A stretch of 31,243 bases of DNA from a virus (IMGVR_UViG_3300020179_000111:1-31243), one strand, 5' to 3'. Counted from the stretch's first letter, positions 1 through 26,000 are shown. A program made the numbers and translations. The notes: generated from the letters alone by a model not told the origin.

Positions 1-1791
1 GAATTGTTGTGCCAACGCATAAGGAACATTGAACGATGGCTTTGAGTTAGCCCAATCGACTATGTGTGTTTTTTGATTTTGGGGCCATGTTGAAGAATTG
101 CTGTTTGCCATTTCCGTGAGGGTCATCGAAGAAAGGCCTGTGGTTCTACTTGCCAAATTTCCTCTCTTGGCAGCCGCGACATCAACATCTCTCGTTTCCA
201 TGTCGACTGGCGTATCCCTATTTCCGGTCAGCAGAAGATTTACTTCTTCATCACTAAAGCCAAGTTCTTTTAATTTGTTGACCGTATTTTGTAGTGTTTC
301 TTTTCTCCTGTCGGCCTGTCTTATTGGTTTACCCTTTTCATCTCTTCTAATCATTCCGTCACCGCGCGTCATTGTATTTTCGGTGCTCGATGACAAACCG
401 CCATCTATTTCTTTTTCGTTTCTCTCGATTGCTCTATTTACTATTTGGCGCGCTCGTTCCTTACTCACACCCAAATCGTCGGCTATGTCCTGAAGCGTCC
501 CCCCATTTTTGCGAATTTCAAGAACCCTTCTGTCTCTATCATCAAGGGGTTTTTTACGGACAGTATTTCCGATTCTTTTATCCGGTTGACCCTTGGCCGT
601 CAATCGAATTGGTTTAATATCTTCTCTTGGCGGCTGTGGGTCGGAATTCAACCATGCTTCTCCCCAAATCAAGGCTGGATGTAATTGCAGGGCTGACATT
701 GTTAATTTATCTGCGGTGAATGCGTCGATTGATGCATCTGGCTCATACATCGCATCAATAACATCCCTGCCAACACCAAGAACGCGGGCTTGCTCATTTC
801 TGTCTTTGCGGAGTCGCAATCGGTCGTAGTTGAGTAGTTCTCTGGCCTTGAGGGGTCCTCCTTTTTGAATCTTGTCCTTTGTCATCCAGCGACGATTATC
901 TACTGGGGAAGCCCAGATTGGCGGCTCTTCCGGTGTTTTACTAGCAAGACCACTTGTGGGCGAACTTGGGGTTGGCATCTCCCTCCAGGTTCCGTCAAAA
1001 ATGAATCCATCGCCGTCCATATCTCTTCGCTCCAGCGGATTAAGCACGCCCTCAATTTTTGCAACAGACCTTCTCATTCGTCTGCTTAGCGAACCCGGCG
1101 CAACCGCTCGTCCAATGAGTTTTCCAATTCCTTTTGTTTCAGTAAGTTCCTCTGTAAGGGATTTTTTTCTCATGCCCCTCTTTCGTTTTTCGTTGCCAAG
1201 TTCTCGTCGAATTATGGTTCTAATAACTCTTCTTTGTGCCTCTTGCTGATTTCTTCTACCAAGAAAAGTTGTTCCGGCAACTCGCGCATAATCTGAATTG
1301 TTTGTGCACGGCATCCATACTGTTCTTCCGGTTGCAGACGGCATTCTCCTAACACCTATGCACCCAAGCATTCTTGAACGTTTTCTTGCTGATTCAATAT
1401 CTGCAAAAACGTCGGGGTCATTGTCTCTGGGCGATATGCCAGGAATATAGGCCTTGACACCACCTGAATAAATTGTTGTATTTATTGGTGCTGAAACAAT
1501 TCCGCCACCATCAAGTGTTGCAAATCCACCAAGCGGCTTTGTTTCTCTTAAATTTTCCCATCCACTTCTTTTTTTCCTGCCCTTGGCTTTGCGTTTTTTG
1601 TATCGTTCATTCATTTCCTCAAATGATGTCTTTTTTTGGGGTTCTGAATCTTCAGAAAGTCTTTGCAATTCTTCATGGGTTTCGCACGGCATCCATTTTC
1701 CATCCGGCATTTTGTGTGCGCCAGAACAGCCAATCCACTGAGCGACGCGAAGCGCAAACACTTTCGAATTGGTATCTTGCTCAGTCGCCAT
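1..1791 (-). CDS. Large head-module polyprotein with two HTH domains (C-terminus outside window)
   Basis: This is an open frame of 597 codons from ATG at 1791 to the left window edge, so the protein is incomplete. The N-terminus holds two copies of a Cys motif of the form GCxGxxxMP...WMPC (about residues 12-30 and 131-152). A basic Ile-Gly-Arg-rich stretch and a DMDGDGFIFDGTWREMP module follow at about 235-275. Next come hexapeptides GLASKT (281), GLSSST (465), NLASRT (~545) and GLSSMT (~552). Between the first two lie an HTH-like region (about 325-381, containing ADKLTMSALQLHPALIWGEAW) and a sigma-70 region-4-like HTH (about 431-455, LQDIADDLGVSKERARQI). The gene follows the 131-residue gene by 8 bases and ends the same polycistron. 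The N-terminal modules are shared with neighbouring head-module proteins, so a virion location is inferred. The DNA-binding role rests on motif resemblance only. Confidence 0.8.
   Translation of the reverse strand, partial: MATEQDTNSKVFALRVAQWIGCSGAHKMPDGKWMPCETHEELQRLSEDSEPQKKTSFEEMNERYKKRKAKGRKKRSGWENLRETKPLGGFATLDGGGIVSAPINTTIYSGGVKAYIPGISPRDNDPDVFADIESARKRSRMLGCIGVRRMPSATGRTVWMPCTNNSDYARVAGTTFLGRRNQQEAQRRVIRTIIRRELGNEKRKRGMRKKSLTEELTETKGIGKLIGRAVAPGSLSRRMRRSVAKIEGVLNPLERRDMDGDGFIFDGTWREMPTPSSPTSGLASKTPEEPPIWASPVDNRRWMTKDKIQKGGPLKARELLNYDRLRLRKDRNEQARVLGVGRDVIDAMYEPDASIDAFTADKLTMSALQLHPALIWGEAWLNSDPQPPREDIKPIRLTAKGQPDKRIGNTVRKKPLDDRDRRVLEIRKNGGTLQDIADDLGVSKERARQIVNRAIERNEKEIDGGLSSSTENTMTRGDGMIRRDEKGKPIRQADRRKETLQNTVNKLKELGFSDEEVNLLLTGNRDTPVDMETRDVDVAAAKRGNLASRTTGLSSMTLTEMANSNSSTWPQNQKTHIVDWANSKPSFNVPYALAQQF
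974..1053 (-). repeat. Diverged third copy of the DGDG module
   Basis: The segment aligns without gaps to the 80-base repeat but differs at many bases. It still encodes the same kind of peptide (VLNPLERRDMDGDGFIFDG, then TWREMP). The peptide has therefore been kept while the DNA diverged. Confidence 0.8.
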
Positions 1792-1799
1792 TGGCGCAC

Positions 1800-2195: not shown

Positions 2196-2202
2196 ACTTG
2201 CC

Positions 2203-5200
2203 TCATCCGTACCGTTTGATTATGTCGTCCCTGCGAGCAATCAGAGTATCAGCAAGAACTTTTGCTCGAGCAGGGTCGCCAACAATCGCTGAAACAGTTT
2301 TTCTAATTTGGTCATCTGTAATCGCGCCAAGTCTTTGCGTCTGTTTCTTGAGTTCACCTTTATCCATATTTGTGAAATCAACGTTGCCGCTCTTTTGTAG
2401 TGATGTCATTTCTCCGACTGAATTGCCGAATCCCATGCTTCCACCACTTCCCTTTTTCTGACCTTGGGCCCGGTAGTCAAGTGAACCACCAACGTCGAGA
2501 CGAACTGCTCGACCATTGTTGTCTATCTTTATATTGTCATTTAGTGGGGCGTCCCAATTGGCAAGCCATGCGTCCACAACGAAGTGCGACCTTGCTGCCT
2601 GTTTATCAGACGGAGTACTTGGCATTCTTGTTTGCACCATCCTGGAAAGCATCACTGGCTGTCCGTTATTGGTGCCCATCTGCAAATCGGCAACTGGTGC
2701 TCCGGCAAGTTCGTACAATTTTCCAGCCAGCACCTCTGTTTCCATTCGCTCCGTGGCTTCAGCAACACTCTCTGAATTCTTTTTGAGTTTTGTGTAGTAC
2801 TTTGTGCCGTTCGGGTCTGTCAACATCGTCGCCGGATTTGAGCCGACTGTCGGAGGATTCGACTTCGTCCAACTATCTGTGTTTACTGCAGATTTGCTAA
2901 TTGGCGTCGCTGGTGTTTGTGTCGGTGGCTTTGGCGCTTCCGTGTCTGATGGTGAGCCAGCATCTCCGCCATCAGAACCAGGGCGACGTGTTGATACGCG
3001 CCTTCTGCGCCCGCCAATCAAAACCCGTTTCCGCTCCTCTATCGGGCTACCCTCGCGACTTCTGTCGGGCCTTGTTCTCCATGAGCGCCAGACGCTTCCA
3101 ACTGGTGCTCCCCCTTCTGTTTTGGCCATATTTTCCGCTTCTTCGCTAGTCATTGGACGCTGGAAGGCGGCCACGTTGGCCCTGTTGTGCAGCAGGAATG
3201 GATTGCTAACTCCACTGCCATCGTTTGTGTCAATTCCGTCCACACCAATCAGCGGAGCAAAATAGCCAACGTCTTTCTGTCTGGTAAAACGAGACAGGTA
3301 ATCGAACGCTCTGAGTATTTCTTTCTTTTCTTTGTTCGTTGCGTCAGATGATGGAGCCTTGTCGAGTTCTTCAAGTCTCTCAACGAGTTGTCTAACTATT
3401 TGACCGCTTCTTGATGTTTCTCCTTCAAGACCTGGCAAAGCCTTCCTATATGTCTCGGCAAGTTCTCCCGGGGTAAGAGCATCTGCCGCGTCTCGTCCAC
3501 CAAGTGCCTTCGTTGCATCAACGGCACGACTTGTTAGGTCACGCATCTTGTCGCGTTCTCTAGTGAGTTCGCCTACGGTTACGACATCTGCGCTTGGTGG
3601 TACCAGGACAAGCATCGTATGTCGCTGGTCGCCTGAGCCTCGGTATCCAGACCAGTGCTGGCCCGGGAATGCAAAATACTCACCGACGCCGAATGCGCGC
3701 GAACCTTGACCAGGTATAAATCTTGCTTCGCTTTCATCACTCAAGAATTGTTCGACATAGGCCTCGCTCAGAACATCTTGCGAACCCGTTCCTCTAATTA
3801 TCGGCTGCCAGCCAGCAGCCACAAGGCGCCGCACCTCATCCTCGGTTACGAGAACTGGCTCACCCGAATATCCGCTGTTTACCCAAACGTCAGCAAGCAC
3901 CTGGTCAAATACTTTGTCTTCTGAACTTCTTGCCTTTGTAAGGTCGTCATCAAGTTTTGCAAGAACAGAAACGTAACGCGGAGTCACATTTACCTTGCCG
4001 TCATTGTCTATGAGAATTGGGGACAATGACGCTTTCTTCTTGCTCATGTCGCGAGACAATTCGTCTGCATCTCTTGATTTTCTAAACTTTGACAGCATCG
4101 TTCTTTTTAGTGCGCGTGCGCGCAGGCGAGCACGCTTCATCTCTAGTTCTGGGTCGCCAACATTTATAATGCGACCTTTTCTAAATGAACCAGTCCGTCT
4201 TAGTGCGCGTTGTCTTGCTTTTGCCGCTCTCTTTTCGTTAACCCTAAGCAGGCGACGACCAATCGATAGTTTCTTCGCCTTACCAAGGTCTTCATCGGTC
4301 AATTCATCAACCGTTTTTGCTTTGTCCATTCCCCCGGCTTGTTTGGCTATTGAAGAATCGCCCATCTTGAACTTGCCAGTAGCACCTGTTCCAACATTCT
4401 TGTGAATCGCTGCTCTTGTTCCGGTGTGGAAATGTTCAAGATTAGAGAAATTGTCATCCTCTTCCATGTTAAGAATTGTCAAAAGGTCGTCAAGGTCGCG
4501 TGCGGCGCGCGAATAGGCCTCGGTCATAATCGGCTGACCGTTTTTATCTGTCTTAACCGTGCCGTCTTCGTTAAGTTTGTACTTTTTAATTTTCCCCTTA
4601 CGAACTGCGTCGTCAAGAACAACCAACATGTCCTGAATGTCGTCTTTTGTCAGTGGGTCATCGGCTGGGCGCCCCTTGTAAGTCCCACCACCTTCGCCAC
4701 GTGCTCGCTTTTTGACGGCGCGAATAGTTTCCTTGTCGCTTCCTTGCTGGGCAGCCGTCCACCATGATTTAAATACTTTTGTTTTTAGCCTGTCAGAAAG
4801 CACCTTTTTCTGTGCCGCTATCGCATCTTTTGCTTTTGCTTTTTGTTCGTCATTCATCGACTCCCATAGAACTCCATCTCCCTCGCCCTTGGTTTTCCCA
4901 AAATTATCCAACATATCGATGATGAGTCGAGTTCTCCGCTTCTTTTTGGGCGTGTCTGGGTCTCCCGCTTTTGGAGCATCACTCCTAACGTCGGGAGTTT
5001 CTGTCGTTGAGGCAAGGCCACGTGGCCGTGATGCTCTTTCGGTTGTTGCAACAGACATTCTTTGTGTAAGTGACTGTTTAATTGGTCGTCGTGTTGATTT
5101 GCCGGTGGTTCTAGAAGCAAGTGAAGCGTTTTCAATTTGCTTTTCCATGTCCATTATGCCGACTCTGTCGTCTTCGTCTAAGCCCTTTTCTGGACTTCTG

Positions 5201-8200
5201 GCAATCCGGAGGGCATTCAGTGCTTTCTGTTTTTCATCAGGTGTTAACTTTTCACCGCGTCGCACTTTCATTATTGCTTGAATTGCGTCATCTGTATCAC
5301 TGCCATCAGTGCTTGACTTCAAGCCGCCGGACTGGATTAATTTTTCCATATCCATGACCCCGATTCGCTCATCCTCGTCGAGGTCTTTGTCTCTTGTTAG
5401 TTTTAGTGCGTTAAGGGCTTTTTTCTTTTCGTCATCAGAAAGTTTTTCGCCGCGCTTCAATTTCATAATTGCCTCAACAGCATCATCAATATCGCTGCCA
5501 GTGTCGGTTGAGGATTTTAGACCGCCGATAATTGAGTTTTCCAAATCAATTAATTCAATTCTTTCGTCCTCGTCTAAACCCTTGCTTGGGTCACGAAGAA
5601 GCCTGAGAGCATTAATGGCTTTTTGTTTCTCATCAGGGTTAAGTTTTTCTCCGCGCTTAAGTTTGGTGATTGCATTAATCGCATCTTCCGTATCGCTATT
5701 GTCGGTCGTTGAGCGAAGGCCGCCACCGCGTCTTTCACCGCGTCTTTTCTTTTCGAGTTCTCTATATGAGTCTCGTAGTCTTTCTTGCAGGTTATCCGAA
5801 ATGGTTGACGCAAAGATAATGGAACTATCGTCGCCCTCTTTATACACTTGCCAAGTTCTGTCTCCGGCTGAATAATCTCCAAAATAATTGGGTTCTCTTG
5901 TTTTGCTAAGTTCGATTTTGTACCCGCGTTTCCTAAGTACGCGCTTTATATCTTTTAGATATTCGTCATTGCCCGACCGCCACCATGGCGAAATAGACCC
6001 TGGCGTCGCAAACGGACGATTATTGAGTTCATCGAATAAATGAATAAGAGTCTTTAACTGGTCGTCGGTTAGTGAATCAAAATCAACATCACTAAGGTCA
6101 GGACCCAATGGGGCATCCTTTACGCCAGGAACTTCTAAATATGCTGGTTTCCACGAGGTTAATTTTGGTGTTTTGTCAGTCGTCGAGCGAAGGCCGCGGA
6201 TTTCATTTTTGTCGATTTTTTTAAGCCCGGAAAGGGCGCTATCAAAGTTGGGAACTTTTGAACCCGACAATATTTCTTTTAGGCGTGCAACGTCTTTGTC
6301 CAGTTCTCTTGCCCGCTTGCCCGCCTCTTCTCGTTCTTCTCTACTTCCAACCCCAAAGCCGCCACCACCAGGTAGACCCATGCGACCCGTTCTGGAGGAA
6401 AAGCCAGTAGTGTCTTCTCTTCTTTCTCGTCTGGCAACCTCACGCTGTGTACGACGACGGTATTCTGCTTCGGAAACATTGCTTGGGCGATTTGCTTCTC
6501 TTTCTTCTGGCGTCATATCCGTCATGTCAATTTTTTCGGGGACGAAGTCTTTTTCGTATTTTCTGTCCTCTTCTCTATCTAGGGCATTCAGTACGCCCTT
6601 AAGGAAGTTTGCTTTGTTGTCGGCTTCCGCTCCATCTTCCAGGGCAAAATCCTGTTGCATGTCCCTGACCATTGCATACACATACGGCTCATCGACATTT
6701 TGTGCCGCCCACCTTCGGGCAACATCATCAATATCGTCATCATATTCCCAATCTGGGTCGTCAAATCCTTCAAGTTGACCAAGGAGGTCATTAACCTTGT
6801 CGGTGGCTGCCTTCCGCATTTCTTTGTCCGAGAGTCGGTCTCTTGACGTAGAAGAACCAAGGCCACGAGTGCTGTCAAGTCTGTTAACAAATCGTTTGGC
6901 ATCTTCTAGGGAATCGAAAGTTTCTGGATAATCCATGTCCTTCCAATTTGGTTCACCGTCAAATGATGGAAGAGACTGTTCAGACCTAACCCCAAACTCC
7001 CCATCATCGTCTTGGTCAATGAAGTAACGGTGGTTATCGTTCCCGTCAAATTCCCACGAACGACCATCGCTATTTGCTGACCAGCCATCTCTGCTTCTTG
7101 TTGTAGAGGCAAGCCCGCCATCTTTTGGTGGGCCCTTCTTGATGTCATTTATGAGGTCGCTGAGTCGTCCGTCGCCATCGAAGTCGTCGTTATTTTTTGC
7201 AACATCCTTTAAGGACTCAAGCAAAGAAGCACGTTCCTTATCGGACAAAGGTTTGCCAGATTCAAGTTTCTTTAGCGCATTAACAAACTGTGGCTCATTT
7301 GTTCCCTCTGCTGCTTGCTGTAGGTCGTTAATTAGTCCTTGGTACTTGTCGGTTTGCGATTTTGGTCCACTACGGGTCATGTCCTTGACTTCATTTATCA
7401 AGTCCCTTAAGCGGTCATCGCCATCGAAGTCGTCATTATTTTTTGCAATATCTTCGAGAGTTGGAATAATGTCTTTTGCTTCTTCGGGAGAAAGACTAAT
7501 TCCCTTTTTAACCTTATTGAGACTTCTTTCCAGGTCTGGCTCGTTTGCGCCTTCCGCGGCCCCAAGAATATCGTCTATAACTGAGCCAAGTCGAGCCTTT
7601 CTACCTCTTCCCTCTTGGTAACGAACACGCGCGCGAGGGTCATTAGCAAATTTTCCAAGCCCAAACGCTATTGCTGCTTCAAGAGCATTTGCCCTGCTTG
7701 TTTTAGGGCTCTTTGGGTCGTACGACGCAATCACGTCGGTTGCGTCCATGTCTTTTCCGGAGTTAACACCACTAATAAATTCGGAAAGTTTTGCGAGTGA
7801 TGCCGCGTCATAGCGAGCACCAGAGCGAGTTCCAATATCCAGTGCTGTGCCTTCTACCAGTTTCTTGATAACTGCGTCAGGATTCTTTTTGAATTCGTCT
7901 CCCAAAATTGATGTTCTAAGTTTTGCGGAGACCGATGAAATCAAGTCGCCCCATTCATCGCGATTATTGCCCGGCCAAATTTTCTCAAATGCCGATTGAA
8001 AATCTCGAGTTGGGTCAAGTGGCACTCCCGGGCTCTCAAGGTCTTGCATGATGTCAATTGCCTCACCAAGGGTTAACTTTGATGAAGATTTGAGGCCGCT
8101 GTTTTTATTTCTGTCGACCAGTGAGGTTCTGCTGACAATTTTTGGTTTATTAACCGGCTTTTTATTGCGCAATTTACCAATCGGATTACTCGGTAATTTG

Positions 8201-9417
8201 TTTTGCTCTCTTTCGAGTTCTCTAATTAGGTCGTCTGGTTTGTCATCGAAGCCTGCTTTGCGCGCACGCTCATAGATAACGTCTTTAAATAGTTCAGTTC
8301 TGCCATCCCTGTATGTAACAGTTAAATCACCGTTTTGGGGATTGTAGGTTATTTCTCTCGCCAAACTTGAATTCTTGGGGTCCATTCGCATGAGGCGCGC
8401 CGTTGCGGTTCGTGGTGGCCCACCCGGACCATCGGGGGCTGCCTGAGTCGCAGAACGAAGACCCTGTGCTCTCCTGAATGCGCCCTGAATGGTGTCTCTA
8501 TTTTTTCTGATTGCATCAACGGACGGCTTTTTGGCATCCGGCAAAAATCTTGTGGGGTCCGGCATTTCTCGCCACGTACCATCAAAAATCATTCCGTCGC
8601 CGTCGAGGTCGCGACGCTTTCGAGGGTCAAGTACCCCTTCAATAACACGCGAGGCCAGTCGACGCATTTTTCCGCCAGAACGCCGGTTTGGTATTGCGCC
8701 ACGCACCGCTCTGCCAATTGAGTAGCCGAGTCTTCCCTTAACAAAAACGTCGACAATTTCTTTGGTTGTTTTACCAACGTGGTCGCGTTTTACTAAAACT
8801 AGATTTTGGTCAGCAAGAATTTGTTTATTGACGACCTTTGTTATTTGTTCTCCGAACTGGCGCTCTATTCCACGAGACATTTTTGAACGAATGTCGTGTC
8901 TTTCTGCCAACTGAGACGCCCTATTGGGCTTGATATTAAATTGCTTGGTCCTGTTGTTAAAAGCCAACTCATTTACGCGAACCCTAAATGCTATTTCACT
9001 TTTGGCTACTGTTTGCTTAAAGTTTTTGACTTTATAGTTAAGGGACACTCGTTTTTGCCATGGCTGACTAGGGAGTCGGTGACTCGTTATCGCAGGAAAT
9101 CGAGAAGCGTTCGCGAATCTCTGAGAGTCAACCAAAACATGACTATTGTTTGATTTTGTCAGACCACTAGCAACCGCCACAACGTCTTTAGTGTCGACAA
9201 TAATTTTTTGAAATAGTTCTTCTGGAAGATTTTTAAACTCACCAACAGAAACATCAATTGGCAGGTCAGTGAGACCCGCCGTATTTTGATTGGCCCACTT
9301 TGACCACTCAATCCCTTTATCGCTCCATCCGTAATAGGTGTTAACACCAGCATTCTTAACGACAATGCCAAAATAAACGCCCCTTGCAACGTTCCTGAGC
9401 ACGGCATATTGTTTCAT
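2203..9417 (-). CDS. Giant mosaic virion polyprotein (2404 aa) with KTSC-like, ART-like and kinase-fold domains
   Basis: The start is ATG at 9417, directly after the stop of the 682-residue gene. Order along the protein: an unassigned N-terminus (1-230); an IGRA basic stretch and the RRDLDGDGMIFDGTWREMP module (260-286); a KTSC-like domain (about 341-403); five copies of a helical repeat with acidic loops (two at about 610-765, three at about 1239-1432); a basic helical stretch (about 1720-1790); an ADP-ribosyltransferase-like region (about 1860-1960, with IIRGTG and GSRAFGVGEYFAF); and a C-terminal kinase-fold domain (about 2190-2404). In the last, Lys in TKYYTKL, DAWLANWDAPLNDN and RLDVGGSL resemble the catalytic residues of HipA and type II PI4-kinase folds. 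Eleven GLxSxT-type hexapeptides start at residues 319, 441, 768, 852, 1005, 1075, 1233, 1299, 1365, 1432 and 1467. Domain names come from motif resemblance. A structural or packaged role is inferred from position behind portal and protease. Confidence 0.85.
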   Translation of the reverse strand: MKQYAVLRNVARGVYFGIVVKNAGVNTYYGWSDKGIEWSKWANQNTAGLTDLPIDVSVGEFKNLPEELFQKIIVDTKDVVAVASGLTKSNNSHVLVDSQRFANASRFPAITSHRLPSQPWQKRVSLNYKVKNFKQTVAKSEIAFRVRVNELAFNNRTKQFNIKPNRASQLAERHDIRSKMSRGIERQFGEQITKVVNKQILADQNLVLVKRDHVGKTTKEIVDVFVKGRLGYSIGRAVRGAIPNRRSGGKMRRLASRVIEGVLDPRKRRDLDGDGMIFDGTWREMPDPTRFLPDAKKPSVDAIRKNRDTIQGAFRRAQGLRSATQAAPDGPGGPPRTATARLMRMDPKNSSLAREITYNPQNGDLTVTYRDGRTELFKDVIYERARKAGFDDKPDDLIRELEREQNKLPSNPIGKLRNKKPVNKPKIVSRTSLVDRNKNSGLKSSSKLTLGEAIDIMQDLESPGVPLDPTRDFQSAFEKIWPGNNRDEWGDLISSVSAKLRTSILGDEFKKNPDAVIKKLVEGTALDIGTRSGARYDAASLAKLSEFISGVNSGKDMDATDVIASYDPKSPKTSRANALEAAIAFGLGKFANDPRARVRYQEGRGRKARLGSVIDDILGAAEGANEPDLERSLNKVKKGISLSPEEAKDIIPTLEDIAKNNDDFDGDDRLRDLINEVKDMTRSGPKSQTDKYQGLINDLQQAAEGTNEPQFVNALKKLESGKPLSDKERASLLESLKDVAKNNDDFDGDGRLSDLINDIKKGPPKDGGLASTTRSRDGWSANSDGRSWEFDGNDNHRYFIDQDDDGEFGVRSEQSLPSFDGEPNWKDMDYPETFDSLEDAKRFVNRLDSTRGLGSSTSRDRLSDKEMRKAATDKVNDLLGQLEGFDDPDWEYDDDIDDVARRWAAQNVDEPYVYAMVRDMQQDFALEDGAEADNKANFLKGVLNALDREEDRKYEKDFVPEKIDMTDMTPEEREANRPSNVSEAEYRRRTQREVARRERREDTTGFSSRTGRMGLPGGGGFGVGSREEREEAGKRARELDKDVARLKEILSGSKVPNFDSALSGLKKIDKNEIRGLRSTTDKTPKLTSWKPAYLEVPGVKDAPLGPDLSDVDFDSLTDDQLKTLIHLFDELNNRPFATPGSISPWWRSGNDEYLKDIKRVLRKRGYKIELSKTREPNYFGDYSAGDRTWQVYKEGDDSSIIFASTISDNLQERLRDSYRELEKKRRGERRGGGLRSTTDNSDTEDAINAITKLKRGEKLNPDEKQKAINALRLLRDPSKGLDEDERIELIDLENSIIGGLKSSTDTGSDIDDAVEAIMKLKRGEKLSDDEKKKALNALKLTRDKDLDEDERIGVMDMEKLIQSGGLKSSTDGSDTDDAIQAIMKVRRGEKLTPDEKQKALNALRIARSPEKGLDEDDRVGIMDMEKQIENASLASRTTGKSTRRPIKQSLTQRMSVATTERASRPRGLASTTETPDVRSDAPKAGDPDTPKKKRRTRLIIDMLDNFGKTKGEGDGVLWESMNDEQKAKAKDAIAAQKKVLSDRLKTKVFKSWWTAAQQGSDKETIRAVKKRARGEGGGTYKGRPADDPLTKDDIQDMLVVLDDAVRKGKIKKYKLNEDGTVKTDKNGQPIMTEAYSRAARDLDDLLTILNMEEDDNFSNLEHFHTGTRAAIHKNVGTGATGKFKMGDSSIAKQAGGMDKAKTVDELTDEDLGKAKKLSIGRRLLRVNEKRAAKARQRALRRTGSFRKGRIINVGDPELEMKRARLRARALKRTMLSKFRKSRDADELSRDMSKKKASLSPILIDNDGKVNVTPRYVSVLAKLDDDLTKARSSEDKVFDQVLADVWVNSGYSGEPVLVTEDEVRRLVAAGWQPIIRGTGSQDVLSEAYVEQFLSDESEARFIPGQGSRAFGVGEYFAFPGQHWSGYRGSGDQRHTMLVLVPPSADVVTVGELTRERDKMRDLTSRAVDATKALGGRDAADALTPGELAETYRKALPGLEGETSRSGQIVRQLVERLEELDKAPSSDATNKEKKEILRAFDYLSRFTRQKDVGYFAPLIGVDGIDTNDGSGVSNPFLLHNRANVAAFQRPMTSEEAENMAKTEGGAPVGSVWRSWRTRPDRSREGSPIEERKRVLIGGRRRRVSTRRPGSDGGDAGSPSDTEAPKPPTQTPATPISKSAVNTDSWTKSNPPTVGSNPATMLTDPNGTKYYTKLKKNSESVAEATERMETEVLAGKLYELAGAPVADLQMGTNNGQPVMLSRMVQTRMPSTPSDKQAARSHFVVDAWLANWDAPLNDNIKIDNNGRAVRLDVGGSLDYRAQGQKKGSGGSMGFGNSVGEMTSLQKSGNVDFTNMDKGELKKQTQRLGAITDDQIRKTVSAIVGDPARAKVLADTLIARRDDIIKRYG
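5107..5703 (-). repeat. Three tandem ~66-residue repeats in the 2404-aa giant
   Basis: Each unit has a DAI.AI.KLKRGEKL helix, a DEK.KALNAL helix, an acidic loop such as GLDEDER, and a last helix ending in a hexapeptide (GLKSST, GLKSST, SLASRT). The DNA copies have diverged, so the duplication is old or the protein is under selection. Confidence 0.9.
7099..7590 (-). repeat. Two related ~75-residue repeats in the 2404-aa giant
   Basis: Two units share AAEG.NEP, a KL/KV..G..LS helix and KNNDDFDGD.RL.DLIN. The first ends in SGPKSQT, which looks like a decayed hexapeptide, and the second in GLASTT. The pattern matches the three tandem units nearer the C-terminus, so five copies exist in all. Confidence 0.85.
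8561..8640 (-). repeat. 80-base exact repeat, copy in the 2404-aa giant
   Basis: This copy is identical to 25266-25345 and encodes residues 260-286 of the 2404-residue protein. Flanking bases diverge at once on both sides. It could be a substrate for homologous recombination between the two genes, 16.7 kb apart. Confidence 0.9.
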
Positions 9418-11466: not shown

Positions 11467-11467
11467 A

Positions 11468-12130: not shown

Positions 12131-12587
12131 TCTTGGATTTCCTTCTTCTTTTTCCTTTTTTAAATTTTCGTTCTGGTGAATCAATCCAATTTGAAATCAT
12201 CTTTTGCGACCACTGGCCAGTATTTTTCGCCAATCTAAAATCCATTGCCCTGTTCTCATAATCAAGAGATTTTGGAACACGACGCAGAATGTCCTTGTTC
12301 ACCACGGACCCATCCAAAAGTTCATCATGAATGGGCAGCGATTTGCCTACAAAAACAGAATACCAGTGAACGCTGCTGTTCGATAGATGTCCATTCCAAA
12401 GGTAATCATGGAATTTCGTTCCCGAAATCCTATGCATGCCTGGATTATTGTCAACGTATTCCCAAAAATTTGTAACTCGTGCATCCCCGACTATGTTTTT
12501 TACAATGCAATCGGTTTGTTCGTCGCGCGCATCAACGACAAAATAAACTCTGTCATTACCAGATTTTCCGACAAGTATTGATTTCAT
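12123..12587 (-). CDS. Unknown small protein (154 aa) coupled to the 2981-aa giant
   Basis: The start codon overlaps the stop of the upstream giant (ATGA), which points to translational coupling. The first 100 residues look like a mixed alpha/beta domain rich in aromatic residues (DRVYFVVDARDEQTD, FWEYVDNN, VHWYSVFVGK). The C-terminus is very basic (FKKGKRRRKSK) and may be disordered or touch nucleic acid. There is no Cys cluster, membrane segment or GLxSxT hexapeptide. I do not recognise the family. Gene order suggests an accessory head or assembly protein. Confidence 0.7.
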   Translation of the reverse strand: MKSILVGKSGNDRVYFVVDARDEQTDCIVKNIVGDARVTNFWEYVDNNPGMHRISGTKFHDYLWNGHLSNSSVHWYSVFVGKSLPIHDELLDGSVVNKDILRRVPKSLDYENRAMDFRLAKNTGQWSQKMISNWIDSPERKFKKGKRRRKSKNG

Positions 12588-15500: not shown

Positions 15501-18500
15501 GATTGAACTTGCCTTGGTTCCGATACACGGAGACCGGCATTTTTCAAGAAAGCAACGAAACTGTCTGTTCCATCAACTTCTGTTTCTGGTTGTTCTCCTC
15601 TGGCTATTCTCTCAGCATTTTGTCTTTCAAGCCATTCTGCAGCCGTAGTTCCTGGAAGGGCGTCGCCAATTGATTGGGGCATCAAATATCTCGGCATTCC
15701 CTTATTTCCAAGGCAAAATGCGCTCGTACCTTTAACCGTTACTTGACACAAGTCAAATACAAAGTTTTTTAGTTTGTCTTCGGATATTTCTCCATTGTGA
15801 TACATCTGCTCCAAAGTTTGAACAAGTCTTGCAAAATCATCAATCAATGTATGCGCGCCTTCCATGTCGGGCATATCAACATCGTGACCGTCAAGAACGG
15901 CCAATACAGCCTCTTCGACCGTATTAACTTTCACCAATAATCTTTTTTCTTCTGGCGCTATTGGTTGATTTGTCTTTTTTTGTGCCATTTCATTCATGTA
16001 TCTTTGCCAGTCTTCGTCAGTAATTTTCGACGAGACGTTGAGGTCAGGGGTCCACAGGACTACACCATCTGCAGTTTCCGAAACTGTTCCCCTCTTTGGT
16101 GTTTGGGTTGAGGACGCGAGGCCACCCCGTGGGGATTCTGGCCTTAATCTTCTTAATTCATCGTCGACCATGGAGATAAAGTTTTTATCATTTACTGAAC
16201 TTGTGCCGAAGCCTGATTCGTTATTTGGGTGGTCAAACAGGGGCGTGCCGTTACCCTTCTCCGCCCTAATTTTCCTGTATCTCAACAATGCTTCATACGG
16301 TGTTGTCTTTTCATCCATAATTACATCTTTGGGCGAAACATCTACCCATTGCCCGGAGGAAATCTGCCTATCAACCCACTTTGCTGTCATTGCAGCGTTG
16401 AATGGTTCAACATCGTCAAGACTTAGTTCTCTTGAATCAATGATTACATCGATTCCGTATTTTTCGAACAACTCATCGCGTTGACGCGCCGCCGCAATTA
16501 GGTTTGTAAAACTTGCTTGGGGATTTGTTCCAAGCATGCTCATTTTTCCCTGTCGCCACATGTGCTCACCGCGCAAACCAAAAGGTTCGGAAACAATAGA
16601 TTCAACATCAGAAAGTTCAAAACTTCCAACTGTCAAGGACTCCACATATCGCTTTCGGCCATTGCTGCCTGCGCTAGCCACGGTATCTCTTCTTCCCGTT
16701 CGGGTTTCAAAAAGAACGGCCAATGGGTCAAAAAACATCGAGGCCAAACGCCCGTCTTCAGATAGTTTGGAAAGCCGCGCGCCCGGCTCAACCACATCGC
16801 TACCACTCGTGCTTACGTCACTTACCGAATCACCATTGATTGCGAGAGTTCGTTCTGCAACTTCAGGTCTCAAAACAATTGAATTGGCGCCATATTGACT
16901 ATCGTTTTTCCATGTTTGTTTGCGAGTTCCAGTATGTGCTGCTTGCTTCCCCTCTTTACCAATCGACGGTGCGTCGTGCTGTATTTCAATATCCTCGCCA
17001 TACAGTTCCCTTAGTCGTCGAGCCCTTGTTTCGCCTGGTAAGGTTTGCAACGTCATTGCCGAGGATGGCCTCAACGACGTTGTTTCGGAATCGGTATCGC
17101 CAGAGAAGTTCAACAATTGCGATTCTGCTGCGCGCCTTATTGCAGGAACATCAAATCCGGTTACTTGGCCGCCTTGAGTTTCTCTACCTTGATGGACGGT
17201 TTCATATCTGCCAGAAGTAATGAGGTCTACCGGACTTCTCATCAATACTGTCGCCCTTTTATCAAATGGGCTCTCAAATTTGCCCATTGCTTCTTCAATT
17301 GCTGCATCGTATTGTTCTGGCGTCATTGCGCCGACTTCTTTTATGAAATCATCTATTTGACCAACAAGTTGTTTATCGCCCCTAACATCTGCTATTTCCC
17401 GTAAAACCTCCAACCTATGACCGAATGTGTCATCTCCAGGCATTTGTCTCAGTATTTCAAGGTCAGACAATGTTGCGTTTTCCGCAAGTCTGCGCAAAAT
17501 CTGTTTATTTTCGGCACTCATAGACGTTTGGATTGCCCTCTTCACTGCCGTCATCGCTTCTGGTCTCAGTCTGTCGGCTTTTGCTTGTTCAATCAGTTTT
17601 GGGACAATCTCTCTTTCTTGCCTGTCCACGTCTACGCCAATATCACTGGCCTTTGCAAGAATGTCAATTGTTTTTTGATTAGCGCGATTGCTTCTGTTTT
17701 GTGAATTAATTTGATTTACGGTGCTTGAGCGCAACCCTGTGCTCGCCGGCATAGCCCTATCTGGATTAAATTCTCGAGGAATTTTTTCAAGTTCGTAAAT
17801 CAATTTATCGGGTTTATTTTCGGCGCCTGCGTCTCTTACTCTCCCATAGGAGACATTTTCAAATTCTCGAGATGTTCCATTTCTGTACGACACCTTAAGC
17901 GTTCGCGTTTGTGGGTCGTATTCTATCTTGTTTGCAAGTTTTGAATTTCTCGGGTCAACCTCCATGGCAACTGCCGCCTGTGTTCTGCCAACCCTTGCTA
18001 CTTCCTGACGTCGTTCAATTCTATTTTCGGCCCGCTTAGCAACAATGCGTTGACCAAGTGGACGTGATTCACTTGACCCAAGTGAGTGTAAAACCTGTCT
18101 TAGTTCGTTTAATTGTTCATCGGTTGTTTTTTGTGAAGTAATACGACCAAGCGCAACTCCATCATTTGTTCTTCCGAATATCTCTACTTCTCCTGGCGGC
18201 AAAATAAGAGAACCAACCTCACCACGCTGAGTGCCCGGAGTGTAGTCAGGAAGTCCGGTTGAACCTTCTGGAACGAGCAACATAATTCTTTGTGCGTCAC
18301 TATTTCCGTTTGGTCCAATATCTTCTGCGGAATGCACAATCGCCGTAAAATGTTTTCCGACAGTTAGTGTTGTGCCAATTTGTTCATCCGGAAGACCAAG
18401 ACTCATGGGCGGTAATTGAATTTCGGCGACCATGTCAGTTGGAACATCAGAGGAATCAATCAGGTCCATAAATGGAATGAATTGATTTTCGACGGCATTT

Positions 18501-21500
18501 ACAATTTCGTCTGGGCGAGACCTAAGCGCACGATTCCAGTCTGTCGGGTCAGATGTATTCCACAACGAACCGCGCCAATTGCCATCAACAAGTTTGCGTT
18601 GCTGTTCAGTGGCGGCGTCCAATACAACTTCTCGCATCATATTGTTTGCCCGAGAAACATCAGAACGTGACCTCATTCCGTCCAGTGTCTCTATTAATCG
18701 TCTTGCAAGTTCCTTATCGGAGTCTGGGGAACTATCCACTACCTCAACCCCCTCCATGCCAGCAATTCCAGGTATGTCGCCAAAACGTTCTGTTGCTTTA
18801 CGGTTTCTTCTTCTCTCTCGAGCCTTTTTGCCCGTAAGCGTGTCCTTTATTCCTTGACGTATTTCGTTCTTAAAATCTCTAATTACTGGCTTTGGGTCTG
18901 GATTTACGGCGCCGAAATTATCATCAATATCCGAACCGTGACGAAGCGGACCAAGAAAGGCCTCAATCTCTGGCGTCATATCAATAAGACCAGCATCAAC
19001 GCCGGTAGATATTTCTGCCTGCATTTCAGCAATCGTTAAAGAAGCGTTTCTTTTGTAGGCAGCCTGCGTTACTTGCAACAAATTTAAATCACCGCGATTG
19101 TATATTTCCGCTACTTCTGAGAACACGCTTACAGCCGCCTCAAATTCTGGGCTTTCGGGGTCCATCCTTTCCATCTTTGCCCTTAATTCAGAAAGTGGTA
19201 AATACAAGTCGTCAGTGCTTTGCATTAGATTTGAAAGAAACGGCGCTCTATGCGCCGCTTCCCAGTAATGCTTCATGGCATACCTTCCACCCATATTCTT
19301 GCCGAGAAGAACCTGCATTACTTCTGGCATGTTCGACATGGCAGTGGAAAGCCATTCCGGATTACTGATTATTGATGCATAGTCCCAATCTCTGCCCAAA
19401 AGGCTGAACATTTGTCCTCCGCCGAGCAAATTTTCTGCCAAAATCATCATGTCTTCGTTTGACATTGAATCCGCCAACCCAGGAATCGTTCGCAAATAAT
19501 TTTGAATCAACATCAATTGACGACCGTGTGTCATCTCGTGATTCATGATGTACATGCCTTGGCCGACCTGTCCAGCGTTTTTCGCATGCCAAAATTGCTG
19601 AAATCCCGTTCCTGATTCTGTTGCGTTTTGCAAGTCCTCTATTGTTTCAAGGTCATTGAGATATGCATCTCTTGCCCGTGTTCGTCCAGCAGCATCAATG
19701 GAAGAACTTATTGCTTGAAGTTTTGCAACTTCCGTGCCGACCATACCATCTGGTTCAAACAGGGTGAATTCACTCTTGCTTATCCCCATTTCTGCTTCTG
19801 TGTTCATTATTGTCCGCAGTGGGTTTATCATCATCTTGTATCCGCCGCGTTCATCCGTAAAGCAAACGGCATCGTTGGCGCCCAAATCTCGAGTGTCCGG
19901 GAATCCAATCGAAAGTTCCCTGAAGCCGTCTGTCAGTTTTGGATTATCTTTTCTTTGTTTGATAAGACCTATCAAAAGACCCGCTTCTTGTTGTCTCATT
20001 TTGTCCCATTTTGTTTGAGCCTCAAAGACAATCTTAAACATATCGGCGTCACGACCGAACACTTCTTCGGCAGTTCTTCCCCCACTCATGACTTCCATGA
20101 GTTTTTGTTTCATCAAGTTTGGATTGCCTGCAAACTTGGTGTTTATTATTGAAGCAAGTTGCTCATTGGTGAGCCCGAATTTTTGCGGGTCGCTAAACAA
20201 ATAGTCAAGTACTACATCTATTTGTCTTGCCCTATGTTCAGCCATTGCTACGTCCATTGAGCCCGCGCCAAATTTGCTGCCAAAATATGCCTTAAAATTT
20301 GCTCTCCAGCCGCCATGCTCTGGAAGATTGAGTAGGTGTAATACTTTTGCCAAACCCATTTGCACTGATTGTGGGTCTGTTGGGTCTATGTCGACACCAA
20401 GTTCTGTTGCAAAATCCAAAACGCCCTGAATGTCGGAGCGCTGCTTGTCTCGAACCTTTTGGCGCCTGACAGCAGTTTGGGTGAGTTTTTTAATTTTTTC
20501 CGGACTCAATTCCGGGTACGTTTTACGAATCATGTCCTCAAACACTTCTTCGTATCTTTCCGGTGGTATTGGCGTTGCCCTTGCGGCTAATTCAGCAACG
20601 TCTCTATCAAAATCCGGCGATGGTGGTACGTCGACAGTAATCGGTCTTCCGTCTGGCCCCAATAACTCACCCCTCGGACCTGGTACCGTTCGCGTTCTGC
20701 TGGCCAACCCGCCACGAACGCGTCGAGCCGCGCCCCCAGGCACACCGACAACATTTCCATCTTCGTCCCTCATTACGGATATTGCGCCATCAATGCTGGA
20801 AATTTCTTCCAATATGCTTGCGCTCGCCCGCTTTGCTATTTCAACGATGGCGCGTCCGATTGCTGGCGTAAAATCAAAACAGTTACTGCCGACTTCATCC
20901 GTAAACTGATTTGCTGCCGGAACACCCGGGGGACACCTCATCCTTCCGTCCGGGTCAAGAATTATTCCTACCGCTCGCGCTGCTGCCTGACCGATATTTC
21001 CGCCGACTCGACCAATAGATTGACCAAGAGCCTTGACCTCTATCTGTCCAGTTCTCTTGTTCTTCTTTGCTGGCCTAGCGATGATTTTGGGTTGATTTTT
21101 TCGTGACGCAAGGTATTTCCTAACCTCTTCGTTGTATTTGTCTGGAGCCACAACTTTGGGTATGTCAAGCCACCCAACGTTTGCAACATCACCCATTTGC
21201 CCATCAAGATTCCATCGAGGCTTTGTTTCAAAATACTGATTCGGCTTTTTGGTCGCCTTGGGGTCGTAGCAATAAATGCCCAGACGCCGGAATTTTAATT
21301 CCTTTTGACGTTTGGCTTTATTATCTGCCGCCGCGTTTCTTGCCGAACCGCCGCCGCGCCCTTTACCCATTGCAGCCTTGACTGCGTAGTCGGCGGAAAA
21401 TGGATAGACACTCAGCAACTGACGAACTTCGACAAAGTCGTTAATTCGTTCCCTAATTGATTTTTCGATGACTGGCGCGAATCGTCCGCTCGTGATGGTA

Positions 21501-21529
21501 CGAGATACGACTACTTTACGCTCCTGCAT
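12584..21529 (-). CDS. Giant mosaic virion polyprotein (2981 aa): two metallopeptidases, ART-like, ParB/Srx-like and DnaQ-like exonuclease domains
   Basis: I chose ATG at 21529 because AGGAAAAGG lies 8 bases upstream; GTG at 21538 would add three residues and lacks spacing. Order: a basic N-terminus; an RCPPG...FTD...C motif (about 195-220); zinc metallopeptidase-like HEMTH (664-668); an ADP-ribosyltransferase-like region (about 960-1130, ending LILPPGEVEIFGRT); a KTSC-like domain (about 1188-1250); a helical and unassigned region (1270-1800); a ParB/sulfiredoxin-like domain with VIDGHHRWAA (about 2065); a DEDDh exonuclease domain (about 2230-2440: YLDYETTGL, NAAFDKDVLE, HTADADAEATAE); and a C-terminal zincin with HEFGH (2770-2774) and a likely third-ligand Glu in TEALAEAFAAWF. 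GLxSxT hexapeptides start at 274, 1265, 1803, 2183, 2190 and 2487, so the ParB-like, exonuclease and C-terminal peptidase parts are each bracketed. The metallopeptidase/ParB-like combination is known from phage head-morphogenesis fusions. A packaged multi-enzyme precursor is inferred. Confidence 0.87.
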   Translation of the reverse strand: MQERKVVVSRTITSGRFAPVIEKSIRERINDFVEVRQLLSVYPFSADYAVKAAMGKGRGGGSARNAAADNKAKRQKELKFRRLGIYCYDPKATKKPNQYFETKPRWNLDGQMGDVANVGWLDIPKVVAPDKYNEEVRKYLASRKNQPKIIARPAKKNKRTGQIEVKALGQSIGRVGGNIGQAAARAVGIILDPDGRMRCPPGVPAANQFTDEVGSNCFDFTPAIGRAIVEIAKRASASILEEISSIDGAISVMRDEDGNVVGVPGGAARRVRGGLASRTRTVPGPRGELLGPDGRPITVDVPPSPDFDRDVAELAARATPIPPERYEEVFEDMIRKTYPELSPEKIKKLTQTAVRRQKVRDKQRSDIQGVLDFATELGVDIDPTDPQSVQMGLAKVLHLLNLPEHGGWRANFKAYFGSKFGAGSMDVAMAEHRARQIDVVLDYLFSDPQKFGLTNEQLASIINTKFAGNPNLMKQKLMEVMSGGRTAEEVFGRDADMFKIVFEAQTKWDKMRQQEAGLLIGLIKQRKDNPKLTDGFRELSIGFPDTRDLGANDAVCFTDERGGYKMMINPLRTIMNTEAEMGISKSEFTLFEPDGMVGTEVAKLQAISSSIDAAGRTRARDAYLNDLETIEDLQNATESGTGFQQFWHAKNAGQVGQGMYIMNHEMTHGRQLMLIQNYLRTIPGLADSMSNEDMMILAENLLGGGQMFSLLGRDWDYASIISNPEWLSTAMSNMPEVMQVLLGKNMGGRYAMKHYWEAAHRAPFLSNLMQSTDDLYLPLSELRAKMERMDPESPEFEAAVSVFSEVAEIYNRGDLNLLQVTQAAYKRNASLTIAEMQAEISTGVDAGLIDMTPEIEAFLGPLRHGSDIDDNFGAVNPDPKPVIRDFKNEIRQGIKDTLTGKKARERRRNRKATERFGDIPGIAGMEGVEVVDSSPDSDKELARRLIETLDGMRSRSDVSRANNMMREVVLDAATEQQRKLVDGNWRGSLWNTSDPTDWNRALRSRPDEIVNAVENQFIPFMDLIDSSDVPTDMVAEIQLPPMSLGLPDEQIGTTLTVGKHFTAIVHSAEDIGPNGNSDAQRIMLLVPEGSTGLPDYTPGTQRGEVGSLILPPGEVEIFGRTNDGVALGRITSQKTTDEQLNELRQVLHSLGSSESRPLGQRIVAKRAENRIERRQEVARVGRTQAAVAMEVDPRNSKLANKIEYDPQTRTLKVSYRNGTSREFENVSYGRVRDAGAENKPDKLIYELEKIPREFNPDRAMPASTGLRSSTVNQINSQNRSNRANQKTIDILAKASDIGVDVDRQEREIVPKLIEQAKADRLRPEAMTAVKRAIQTSMSAENKQILRRLAENATLSDLEILRQMPGDDTFGHRLEVLREIADVRGDKQLVGQIDDFIKEVGAMTPEQYDAAIEEAMGKFESPFDKRATVLMRSPVDLITSGRYETVHQGRETQGGQVTGFDVPAIRRAAESQLLNFSGDTDSETTSLRPSSAMTLQTLPGETRARRLRELYGEDIEIQHDAPSIGKEGKQAAHTGTRKQTWKNDSQYGANSIVLRPEVAERTLAINGDSVSDVSTSGSDVVEPGARLSKLSEDGRLASMFFDPLAVLFETRTGRRDTVASAGSNGRKRYVESLTVGSFELSDVESIVSEPFGLRGEHMWRQGKMSMLGTNPQASFTNLIAAARQRDELFEKYGIDVIIDSRELSLDDVEPFNAAMTAKWVDRQISSGQWVDVSPKDVIMDEKTTPYEALLRYRKIRAEKGNGTPLFDHPNNESGFGTSSVNDKNFISMVDDELRRLRPESPRGGLASSTQTPKRGTVSETADGVVLWTPDLNVSSKITDEDWQRYMNEMAQKKTNQPIAPEEKRLLVKVNTVEEAVLAVLDGHDVDMPDMEGAHTLIDDFARLVQTLEQMYHNGEISEDKLKNFVFDLCQVTVKGTSAFCLGNKGMPRYLMPQSIGDALPGTTAAEWLERQNAERIARGEQPETEVDGTDSFVAFLKNAGLRVSEPRQVQSEKLKATQRDMQGHKVATMLSGAIRGKFDKATGKYDETKKWNPGKKPIFVSRDGYVIDGHHRWAAQLGLDAMDGILGNNHYMNVVVVDAPISEIIVLANQWTWEFGIAPKPVAKRTDSNPAYAREVLQILRDSAHVGGVGNIDFGYMKPREAAELTTMEPGDEFARIPAPKSRGLASRTTGLKSSTDTKNEKPQYPRKPSYGPILGDMNKIFEGAKDWEDFKKRYDDVEVTYLDYETTGLKFDEFNFSTGNGEVTQIGAVKVKNGKVTKRFETYVNPGIPRSDWEQWSRDNLKDYDGNLVTDEFLQNKPSVAEAHRRLAEFIGPNAMMGVQNAAFDKDVLEDALKKHGIDFSVAGWIDLKDMASMVLPRYSDEKPDGPFKFNKKLGKNVPSNSLADITKYLQVELGDKHHTADADAEATAESMRKLIEGAIKNKWSTDVLDETNRTNYVTKQQERFDKDITAFDTAKADYVQKQKSGGLASSTSRSSQDFDFPPKPSGRTLGQKLDQGPQELPNGRDSLGIPVVAKPDTLKKKFGSSRRQAQRYFKKKYGIDVEVSKSIFKNKKGDMKSTARHAAGYAAMQAFDDMLLNTPGLQQLLKDNNFSINITDGGAEGRSDLFMPTEVLGTFGPRPKLFRSQRFRDGDKARTRIDINIHELTDGARRLVQRDWGPRFRGHQRVQVTDGPGRTANAISVPGGALPTVMAQLGLPAFDDSFLEPSADMPDNLPPWRRSVSADRNYDEAKYEELVNTVGARLAYATTVHEFGHLLDFAVRDKSKSTMELPSVLKSMFVSIFDDGPPNETRAEKMKRITKKLFRGGDIEDLYESGSRTRQIEAELQPSRYAATKATEALAEAFAAWFLFARAPDIRTTAASRKKVRNLSGEETEAVNVTGVLMQPAKGSRSVISPLIQKLGPAVKSANPEEATNLEDFDPLVVLYAFLPLIAENAKSAKIGRRRARRINRNKKDDKESVSK

Positions 21530-21555
21530 GGCAGGCACCTTTTCCTAGTCGATTA

Positions 21556-22917: not shown

Positions 22918-22989
22918 TGTGATGGCTCCTTGTTATCTCGAGACGACAATAGCACGCGCCGTGCCGACCCGTTGTATTAAGAATCGTTT

Positions 22990-23030: not shown

Positions 23031-23053
23031 TTGCAATTTTGCCCTTCTTCGCT

Positions 23054-26000
23054 TTACTTATCTGCCGGCATGGAACTTTTGTCAACAAACGTTGACATAG
23101 CCGCAGAAGCAACTTTTTCAAGCAATTCTGCAAAAATTTCCCCACGAGTTCCAACACCACCATCCTTCCCGGCAGTTTTTTGTCTGTCGATTACGGCCAT
23201 CACCGCATCAAGAATTTTGTCTGCTTCGTCCGCGGTAATTTTTATTGAGCCAACGTTTGTTCTTTTTGACCCTGCTGTAAATGCTCCTGCTTCGTATTTC
23301 TTTATTTTTTCTTGAAGTATTGTCAGGCCCTTTTTGGTTGAGTCAGAATCTGCACTTCTAATCTCCTTCGACAGAGAATCGTCTATTTTTCTCCACCAAG
23401 TGGATTCATTGGTTATCTCTGTTCTGGGTGCCTTTTCTGTTGAAGAGGCAAGCCCCCGAGCCTGTTTTTTGCGTCTATTTGACTTTTGGAATGCCCTGGC
23501 TTTGGCTGTGCTACTTTCCAAACCAGAAATACTGTCGAGTGCGGTTTCTTCATCAAATTCCGTCAAATCCCCTGTTCCGTCGTCTCCATATATTTCATCT
23601 ATGTTGGCGCCAGCAGATATGTCGTCATCATCGTCGTCTAAGCCATATCTTTCGGCGCGTCTCCCTCGACGTCTCAATTCTTCTCCTGCTTCAGTCGAAA
23701 ATCCTCCACCACCAGCGCTTTCTACATTTTCTGCATCCAATTCGTCTTCGGAATCCCTGGCCCTTCCCTGACCGCGTTCAAGATTTTGATTGACGCGATA
23801 CATGAACTCTAGAAGTTCTTTCTCCTTCTTGGTCATTTTTCTAGTTTGTCTCACTTCTTTTATTGGGTCGTATTCCACAAGCGATTCGGCAAGTTCCGCT
23901 AGTCCGTTGTCCAATTCTTCGATTGCATCTTTAAAGTTTTGTGGTGTCGGCTCAACCCCATCTTCCGGATAGACAGTTGAAACAATCTTGTCAGCAATAT
24001 CTCTTACGGCGTTACCAAACTCTTCGTCAACACCATTCATTTTGGAACCCAAACTCACCGTTTCTGCCCACGCCTTAATTTCTCTTTCTTCGGTGCGCAA
24101 TTTTGTTGGTGGTGTTTTTGGCGCTGTGGGTTTCGGCTTTGGCTTTGGCGTGTCTTGAGTACTTGGTTCGGGCTCTGTTGGTTTTATGGCCCTAACCTTC
24201 TTTGCCTCATCTCTTTCTCTATCTTCATCTTTTCGCATCGTTTGTTCAATCAGATAATCATCCAAACTTCTGATTGACTTTTGCCATCGCGAACTCCTAT
24301 TCAATGTTTCAAGTTTTTTTCTATTGTCGCCGAACCAGGCCAACTGCTCGTCTACATCCATTTCCTTCCAATTTTTAGGAAATATTTCCGCCTTGATATA
24401 GGGTTCAAGCAAATCTACTTTCTCGCCATCAATCTTCTTTTCGTAGACAATCTCTGGCGGATTTCCCCGTACTTCAAATGGGGAGTGTTGTATTCCTTTA
24501 CCATCTTTATCACGTGGCCATGGAGTTCCGACTTCCTTACCTCGGGCTGCGCTGACTTTGCCACCACGAGTGTCAACACCACGCTGAAGTCTTTGTTTGG
24601 CCTTCTCTGAATCTGACCGTATTTTCCTAATTCTCTCCCCTCGTTGTGTGAGTCGCCCAATCGGACTGTCTTGTTCGTCCAGTTCTCTGTCGCGCGCCTC
24701 ACCCTGTTCCAAGGTGAGTGTGTTTTTCGTTTGTTTATTTGTTCTAAAATATTCGCCCTTTTCAATAAGTTCGTTTAGAACTTCAAATGGCGTTCTTCCT
24801 TTTTCCATTTTTCTTTCTTTTTGTTGATGTTTACCGCTTTTTTCAAGGCCATCTTTGACTTGTGGCCACGCCGCACGCAACTCTTCCAACATTTTTTCGT
24901 CGATATCAGGCAAATGGTCTTGCGTTTGCTTTGGTCTTGTTAAACCAGTTGGTGCCCCAAACTCATTTACTTCTGGTGTAAGTTCCGTATATCGCTTGGC
25001 TTCCTTTATCGCTTTGGCAATTCTTCTGACTATGTGGTCATCTGGCAACGACGCGCCATCTTCTTTCAAAAAATCTTCAAACATTCTTTCAATTTTTGGT
25101 TTTGTTTTTCTTGGGATTAAGAAGGGAACGATTGTTCGCCCCTTCCTTTGTGCCGTTATGTACCAGGGTTCGCCGCCCTGCCATTTGGGTTTTTTGGGTG
25201 GAGTGTTGTCCGCGGGGGGGTTTGTTTCAGACCTCAGTCCCTGTGTGGCAAATCTTGTTGGGTCTGGCATTTCTCGCCACGTACCATCAAAAATCATTCC
25301 GTCGCCGTCGAGGTCGCGACGCTTTCGAGGGTCAAGTACCCCTTCGATTCTGGCTAGCGCGGCCCTGCCGCGCCTAACTTTTCCCCCACCACCGATGCCC
25401 CTACCGATTCTTCCAAGCAATGACTTGGTTGCGTTTTCCACCGCCTCATAAGCATCTCCAATTAGAGGAGAGGAAATAACGATGCCGTCCTCCGTCACGT
25501 ACGATTCAATCCTGTGATAATCAAACACCGGGTCAAGCGCCTGCTTCGTGGAAAAAGCGTCTTCAGGTGAGCAAGGGATTACCCAAACGTCAACGTCATG
25601 AGACTTTGTGTCCAGAAGTTCATTAAGGGAAGTTGTTATATCAAGTAATTTTTGCGTGATTTCATTATGTTCAGCAGCACTAACCTTGCTGAGGAAAATT
25701 GACTCAAGACTTTCCTCTTCAGACTTGGACGAATCAAAAAACCCGCTTTGAATTCCTGAGTTGCCATATCTCACTGGAATAATCGGACCCTCTGGTCTAC
25801 TCGGTTTTTGTGCCACGCCAGGAAAATTTGGAATTCTTGGCGTTGCTTGTTGACCTGGGGTTGGTCGACCAGAACTCGGCATGCCCGCCATTGGTCTATT
25901 GATGAGCATTGGCGTTACAATTTTTTCTGGTTTACCAAACATGTATTGTTCGCCATCAAAGTAATAACCAAGACGAAACATTCCCTTACCTGGTTTTAGG

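Follow-up and report, generated by a model that had tools for sequence, protein, structure and literature searches.

The head operon and its giant proteins

The viral sequence IMGVR_UViG_3300020179_000111, a linear IMG/VR record analysed over its full 31,243 bases (the window, by which we mean the whole stretch analysed), encodes the head operon of a tailed phage from a large uncultured family; its longest proteins share a repeated hexapeptide, GLxSxT, that may mark processing sites. The operon lies on the minus strand, to which all window coordinates given here refer, and comprises the portal, a prohead protease fusion (F), an acidic protein, a giant protein (A), small proteins, a 682-aa protein, and the proteins B and C. 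TerL is encoded on the plus strand.

F (1215 aa; 23057..26701) carries an S78 prohead protease domain (26189..26644) upstream of its first motif, matched in profile searches by Pfam PF04586 (E 5e-10) and PHROG 80 (E 1e-25). This domain adjoins the portal and capsid genes, the capsid gene being seen in relatives. The long polypeptides encoded with the virion genes combine several unrelated domains each. A (2983 aa; 12587..21535) contains two HExxH motifs, a KTSC domain and an RNase_T exonuclease domain. B (2404 aa; 2206..9417) has a KTSC domain, which like that of A scores below the curated cut-off, and three tandem repeats of ~66 aa. C (1..1791) is truncated by the end of the record at 597 aa and carries DUF3721 and sigma70 region 4; its full-length orthologues terminate in a Zeta_toxin-type kinase. 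One such orthologue, in the relative G003 (L216 5732-8335), combines DUF3721 repeats, a sigma70 region-4 helix-turn-helix and the C-terminal Zeta_toxin-type kinase.

A hexapeptide is repeated along the four giants

Strict GLxSxT copies number 3 in F, 6 in A, 8 in B and 3 in C, a total of 20, whereas 2000 local residue shuffles averaged 0.16 and never exceeded 3. In a search over all four-position patterns, GLxSxT was by far the top repeat of the window, scoring 64 compared to 10-15 for shuffled sequences. Direct reading added four loose copies, bringing B to 11, C to 4 and the four giants to ~24, with the outermost copies starting at 121 and ending at 25240. These figures reproduce the original prediction, made from the window alone, of 3, 6, 11 and at least 4 copies (at least 24 in all) between positions 121 and 25240.

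The three copies in F are GLRSET, its first site (25223..25240), GLESST (23507..23524) and GLASST (23438..23455), the last before the segment PRTEITxESTWW. A begins its series with GLASRT (20693..20710), followed by GLRSST (17720..17737), GLASST (16106..16123), a tandem of GLASRT (14966..14983) and GLKSST (14945..14962), and GLASST (14054..14071). The first site of B is GLRSAT (8446..8463); downstream lie the loose GLKSSS (8080..8097), GLASTT (7099..7116), GLGSST (6847..6864), the loose GFSSRT (6388..6405) and GLRSTT (6178..6195). Each tandem repeat of B is then headed by a copy (GLRSTT, 5704..5721; GLKSST, 5506..5523; GLKSST, 5308..5325), and the series closes with the loose SLASRT (5107..5124) and GLASTT (5002..5019). 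C contains GLASKT as its first site (934..951), GLSSST (382..399), and the loose NLASRT (142..159) in tandem with GLSSMT (121..138). The extended peptide LASRTTG, predicted to occur identically in three proteins, was found in A, B and C.

Codon identity among copies at the G, L, S and T positions is 0.247, compared to 0.237 ± 0.023 for random synonymous choice, and both serine codon blocks are used. Because synonymous codons vary at random among the copies, selection acts on the peptide and the repeat is one of protein and not of DNA, as the differing codons had been taken to mean; a DNA repeat as the source of the peptide is thereby refuted. The flanks are linker-like: Pro, Arg, Ser and Thr are enriched there, whereas Val, Leu and Tyr are scarce.

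No motif was found in the portal, the acidic protein, the 131-, 154- and 238-aa proteins or TerL of the window, in keeping with the restricted distribution first proposed. The 682-aa protein holds a single match, GLLSNT. Because this match is retained in lineages that use other peptides (see below), we regard it as a chance match and do not count the protein as a motif-bearing member.

Related phages carry other peptides at the same positions

Scans of viral contigs yielded ~550 stretches encoding this S78 domain, the best of which were retrieved. Relatives with an S78 domain 85-94% identical to that of F often do not have GLxSxT, and most have a repeated peptide of their own. Such lineage peptides, which we call dialects, were found by a de novo search for repeated peptides in each genome, with scores mostly of 17-70 compared to 10-15 for shuffles. 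They include LRSSG (G002, G006), RGARSxS (G004), RLxSGR (G005), GLxSxR (G008, G009), GFxSxT (G011), GFASRG (L051), GLSSG (G013, G014) and ITGKM (G016). Long protease fusions carry KLSSG, RLSSG or RFSSG, of the [LF]SSG type, with up to ~18-20 copies per protein; as the patterns were picked per genome after viewing the de novo repeats, dialect counts are biased upward. Most dialects share a hydrophobic-x-Ser core, the neighbouring residues being lineage-specific.

Within a genome the dialect is uniform across all giants, including an extra giant outside the head operon. In G001, 25 of 29 copies fall in five giants, seven of them in a giant encoded 22 kb past the capsid gene. Among the four that remain are the constant GLLSNT of the 682-aa protein and a pair within low-complexity parts of the tape measure protein. 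Tape measure copies in G001 and G002 were rejected as chance matches in low-complexity or conserved stretches. The distant G001 giant (L209 806-10900, corresponding to G001:80806-90900) is 3365 aa long; besides two HExxH motifs it has a tag module (described below) and seven copies written in the dialect of its genome. Large open reading frames of G011 and G013 have two own-dialect copies each. Contigs L240, L241 and L242, filed as metagenome-assembled genomes (MAGs) of Gammaproteobacteria and Phycisphaerae, also encode the protease of this phage family, and probably represent phage DNA that was binned into marine MAGs. A search for the host among genome contigs gave three marine MAG contigs and was uninformative.

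The different words occupy the same places. In nine genomes, 94 of the 115 motif copies of A, B and C stand at shared alignment positions, compared to ~33 by chance (B 45/57, C 28/28 and A 21/30, with random means of 17, 12 and 4, respectively), a degree of sharing never reached in 1000 random trials. This test and the border test below compare equal copy numbers with random positions, and are thus less exposed to the upward bias noted above. At orthologous sites the flanks are conserved and the core is replaced. For example, the F site before PRTEITxESTWW reads GLASST, GLRSGG, GARSTSG, TLRSSG, RLASGR or GLRSDR according to lineage, and the site of B at 5002..5019 is present in all nine aligned genomes in five dialects.

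On a tree built from TerL, portal, S78 and acidic protein, GLxSxT, RGARSxS and RLxSGR each form a single clade, and the motif class takes seven states with six changes. With six changes for seven states, and one clade each, the sites have therefore switched in concert, a single time in each clade, and have since been retained as the linkers diverged. The hexapeptide had been expected to be conserved along with the domains in related phages. That expectation failed for the peptide itself and held for the site, and since a different repeated peptide stands where the hexapeptide has been lost, the interpretation of these peptides as sites is strengthened. The pattern indicates separator sites, putatively of cleavage type, whose reader acts in trans and has changed from clade to clade.

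The sites are associated with domain borders

We compared the ends of homology between non-orthologous giants with the motif positions. Of 135 such ends, 45 fall within 25 residues of a motif, compared to 21.3 ± 5.2 by chance, a count never reached in 5000 random trials. A genome uses one site sequence throughout at its domain borders, the association being statistical in that not every border has a copy.

Individual domains illustrate this. The exonuclease domain of A (residues 2207-2484) sits between GLKSST (14945..14962) on its left and GLASST (14054..14071) on its right, and a homologous domain in the L179 protease fusion (residues 3147-3420) sits between MSSG and LSSG, so that both borders are written in the local dialect in either protein. 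The KTSC domains of A, B, L167 and L179 have a motif at one or both borders, likewise in the local dialect, the right border in A being GLRSST (17720..17737). At the position corresponding to the natural end of B, L072 and L073 have an internal border, and a motif lies 15 residues further on. Lastly, when full-length C of G003 is modelled with AlphaFold (mean predicted local distance difference test score, pLDDT, of 60), all four motifs (residues 291, 460, 538 and 614) lie in segments of pLDDT <50 between ordered parts, such segments making up about a quarter of residues 264-868. The placement of the hexapeptides at domain borders, part of the original prediction, is thus borne out by motif-bordered transferred domains, orthologous positions and low-confidence linkers.

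Just ahead of the first separator, F, B, C and the extra giant of G001 share a module of pattern DxDGDGxIxDGTxxExP, which by its sequence resembles a calcium-binding loop and is likely a shared targeting tag. In the window it is found in F as LDPRKRRDLDGDGMIFDGTWREMPDPTRF (25250..25336), directly before the first motif, in B as DLDGDGMIFDGTWREMPD (8545..8631) and in C at 967..1044. The 682-aa protein (9421-11466) has a Cys-containing segment, GYTRCPEGYQYGGRFTDNRFSTCG, and A has a similar Cys segment at the place where the DGDG tag would stand.

Candidate proteases and alternative explanations

Taken together, the data suggest polyproteins, with a protease that cuts the giants and co-evolves with their sites. 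That the hexapeptides are processing sites, separating the domains of giant multi-domain proteins and cut by a protease acting in trans, is on balance the probable explanation. Several points weigh against it. The de novo search gave no clear repeated peptide in L030, L080, L122, L240 or L241. Dialect is also confounded with clade, so that covariation cannot name the reader. The remaining points concern the candidate protease in A, a region in its N-terminal third with the motif HEMTH (HExxHxxQ; 19526..19540), which we refer to as the HExxH protein. It evolves fast, with 41 of 535 variable columns clade-specific, but it is not above other fast-evolving proteins such as the portal, which is similarly rich (20 of 225); because of this similar share, the HExxH protein is not singled out. 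Its region gave no PDB fold match at E <0.001, the best hit being an unrelated helical protein (VIA-align Z 5.0), and because there is no fold match we call the protein zincin-like on its motif alone.

The HExxH protein nevertheless appears a better candidate reader than S78. The H, E, H and Q of its motif are invariant in nine genomes, a counterpart with HExxH is present at the equivalent place in the A-type giant of nearly all lineages checked, and a model of the region places the motif in a predicted long helix. A second zincin-like motif of A, HEFGH (13208..13222), was not found in G005.

The original prediction named the S78 protease of the operon as the enzyme that processes these virion polyproteins. 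The polyprotein-type sites at domain borders are well supported; the S78 domain as their reader is not, and we now consider it unlikely that the prohead protease of F cuts the hexapeptides as those of phiKZ and SPN3US cut ejection proteins at AxE. In its favour, every one of these operons encodes S78, joined to a protein that bears the motif; internal proteins of the SPN3US and P1 heads are indeed processed by prohead proteases (PMC10052503, PMC12810830); and the shared hydrophobic-x-Ser core, which S78 could still recognise, might be its minimal site. However, the catalytic domain is unchanged where the peptide switches: of 180 columns compared, none of the 37 variable ones separates the GLxSxT clade from the others, in a small sample and with the reservation that determinants may lie elsewhere in F. 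Covariation of S78 with the dialect was accordingly rejected for this clade. The capsid protein, the usual substrate of such a protease, does not carry the lineage peptide in any of the 11 relatives checked, and was rejected as a motif carrier; ETRSIGEAF, its presumed cleavage region, is identical in genomes of three dialects. The S78 protein of G016 (789 aa) likewise has no copy. Because both its own sequence and the capsid site are kept, S78 is an improbable source of the changed specificity, and it is unlikely that S78 alone sets the dialect.

Less probable still is a role for the peptides as docking or cargo-loading signals, held in flexible linkers and tying the giants to shell, scaffold or portal in an encapsulin-like manner. 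A short repeated peptide in linkers that are modelled with low confidence would suit such a role, and the HK97-type shells of encapsulins bind short cargo peptides (PMC8346489). Yet no column of the capsid protein is specific to the GLxSxT clade, so covariation of that protein with the dialect was rejected too. Moved domains have copies on either side, and a natural C-terminus can stand in for a site; both observations fit separation better. Up to 18-20 copies per protein seems more than docking needs.

Cutting by a host protease after injection, with the dialect tracking the host lineage, strikes us as very improbable: it would accommodate the fact that no phage protease has been shown to follow the dialect, but the capsid proteins of G001 and G002 are 96% identical and their dialects differ, which would call for abrupt differences between host proteases. 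A repeated DNA element or chance has nothing in its favour beyond repetition itself and can practically be dismissed, given the random synonymous codons in both serine blocks, the 0.16 copies expected and the tie to borders.

Discussion

We postulate the following sequence of events for processing by a trans-acting protease. A giant would start with an N-terminal region (the S78 domain in F), usually followed by the DGDGxIxDGT tag module and then the first site; effector-type domains would come after this site, parted by further sites. We infer head packaging, cleavage and protease identity as follows: the giants are probably head-packaged, and a trans-acting protease, in all likelihood phage-encoded, would cut the sites during head assembly or after injection, freeing the effector domains for injection. 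Its specificity would have changed between clades, all sites of a genome following, to give one dialect per lineage.

Phages with processed heads offer the closest comparison. In SPN3US, phiKZ and 201phi2-1 the prohead protease matures head and ejection proteins, at AxE sites in SPN3US (PMC10052503), and as in our proposal a phage-encoded head protease acts on many internal head proteins that share a short motif. There, however, the capsid and ejection proteins have the motif in common and nearly all cuts remove N-terminal propeptides, whereas here the capsid protein is free of the motif, the copies stand at borders along the giants and the sequence varies by lineage. The arrangement at the first site does resemble that of the N-terminal propeptides cleaved off in the heads of SPN3US and P1 (PMC10052503, PMC12810830). 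Polyvalent proteins of phages and conjugative elements, such as DarA and DdrB of P1, are also multi-domain proteins of great length whose genes accompany those of the virion, and Iyer et al. 2017 proposed that metallopeptidase domains process them; in the portion of that description cited here, unlike in our phages, we found no repeated separator peptide or lineage dialect (PMC5512222).

Bendigovirus and related cultured phages of Gordonia and Brevibacterium (GMA6, DalanDe and Cantare) encode a homologous S78 protease (38-44% identity), and their large proteins have no repeated peptide of this kind. DalanDe encodes a fused capsid maturation protease of 1633 aa (L220 11608-16509) with S78 in its C-terminal third, the reverse of the order in F. 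Outside the phages, the polyproteins of potyviruses are cut by NIa-Pro at a species-specific consensus. RNA-virus polyproteins resemble the present system in having one repeated, lineage-dependent site sequence at all domain borders; they differ in that here the virus is a double-stranded DNA (dsDNA) tailed phage, the giants are several and come from different genes, and the protease is only a candidate. Our literature search, over open-licence papers, found no described phage system of this form. More tentatively, it is possible that an RNA-virus-like polyprotein system operates throughout this dsDNA tailed phage family, with domain cassettes in several giants, a lineage-private peptide code, a dedicated protease that does not serve the capsid, and the borders of moved cassettes rewritten in the dialect of the recipient.

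With a separator code, the domain borders of many phage giants that lack annotation can be located directly, and testable domains excised. Where close relatives differ by a concerted change of ~15-30 sites, nature supplies a clean example of co-evolution between site and reader. Identification of the protease would provide a set of related enzymes that differ in their short specificities. Should the sites be cut, true polyproteins with private processing codes exist in dsDNA phages, and this would explain how very long head-operon proteins carry and exchange many independent effectors.

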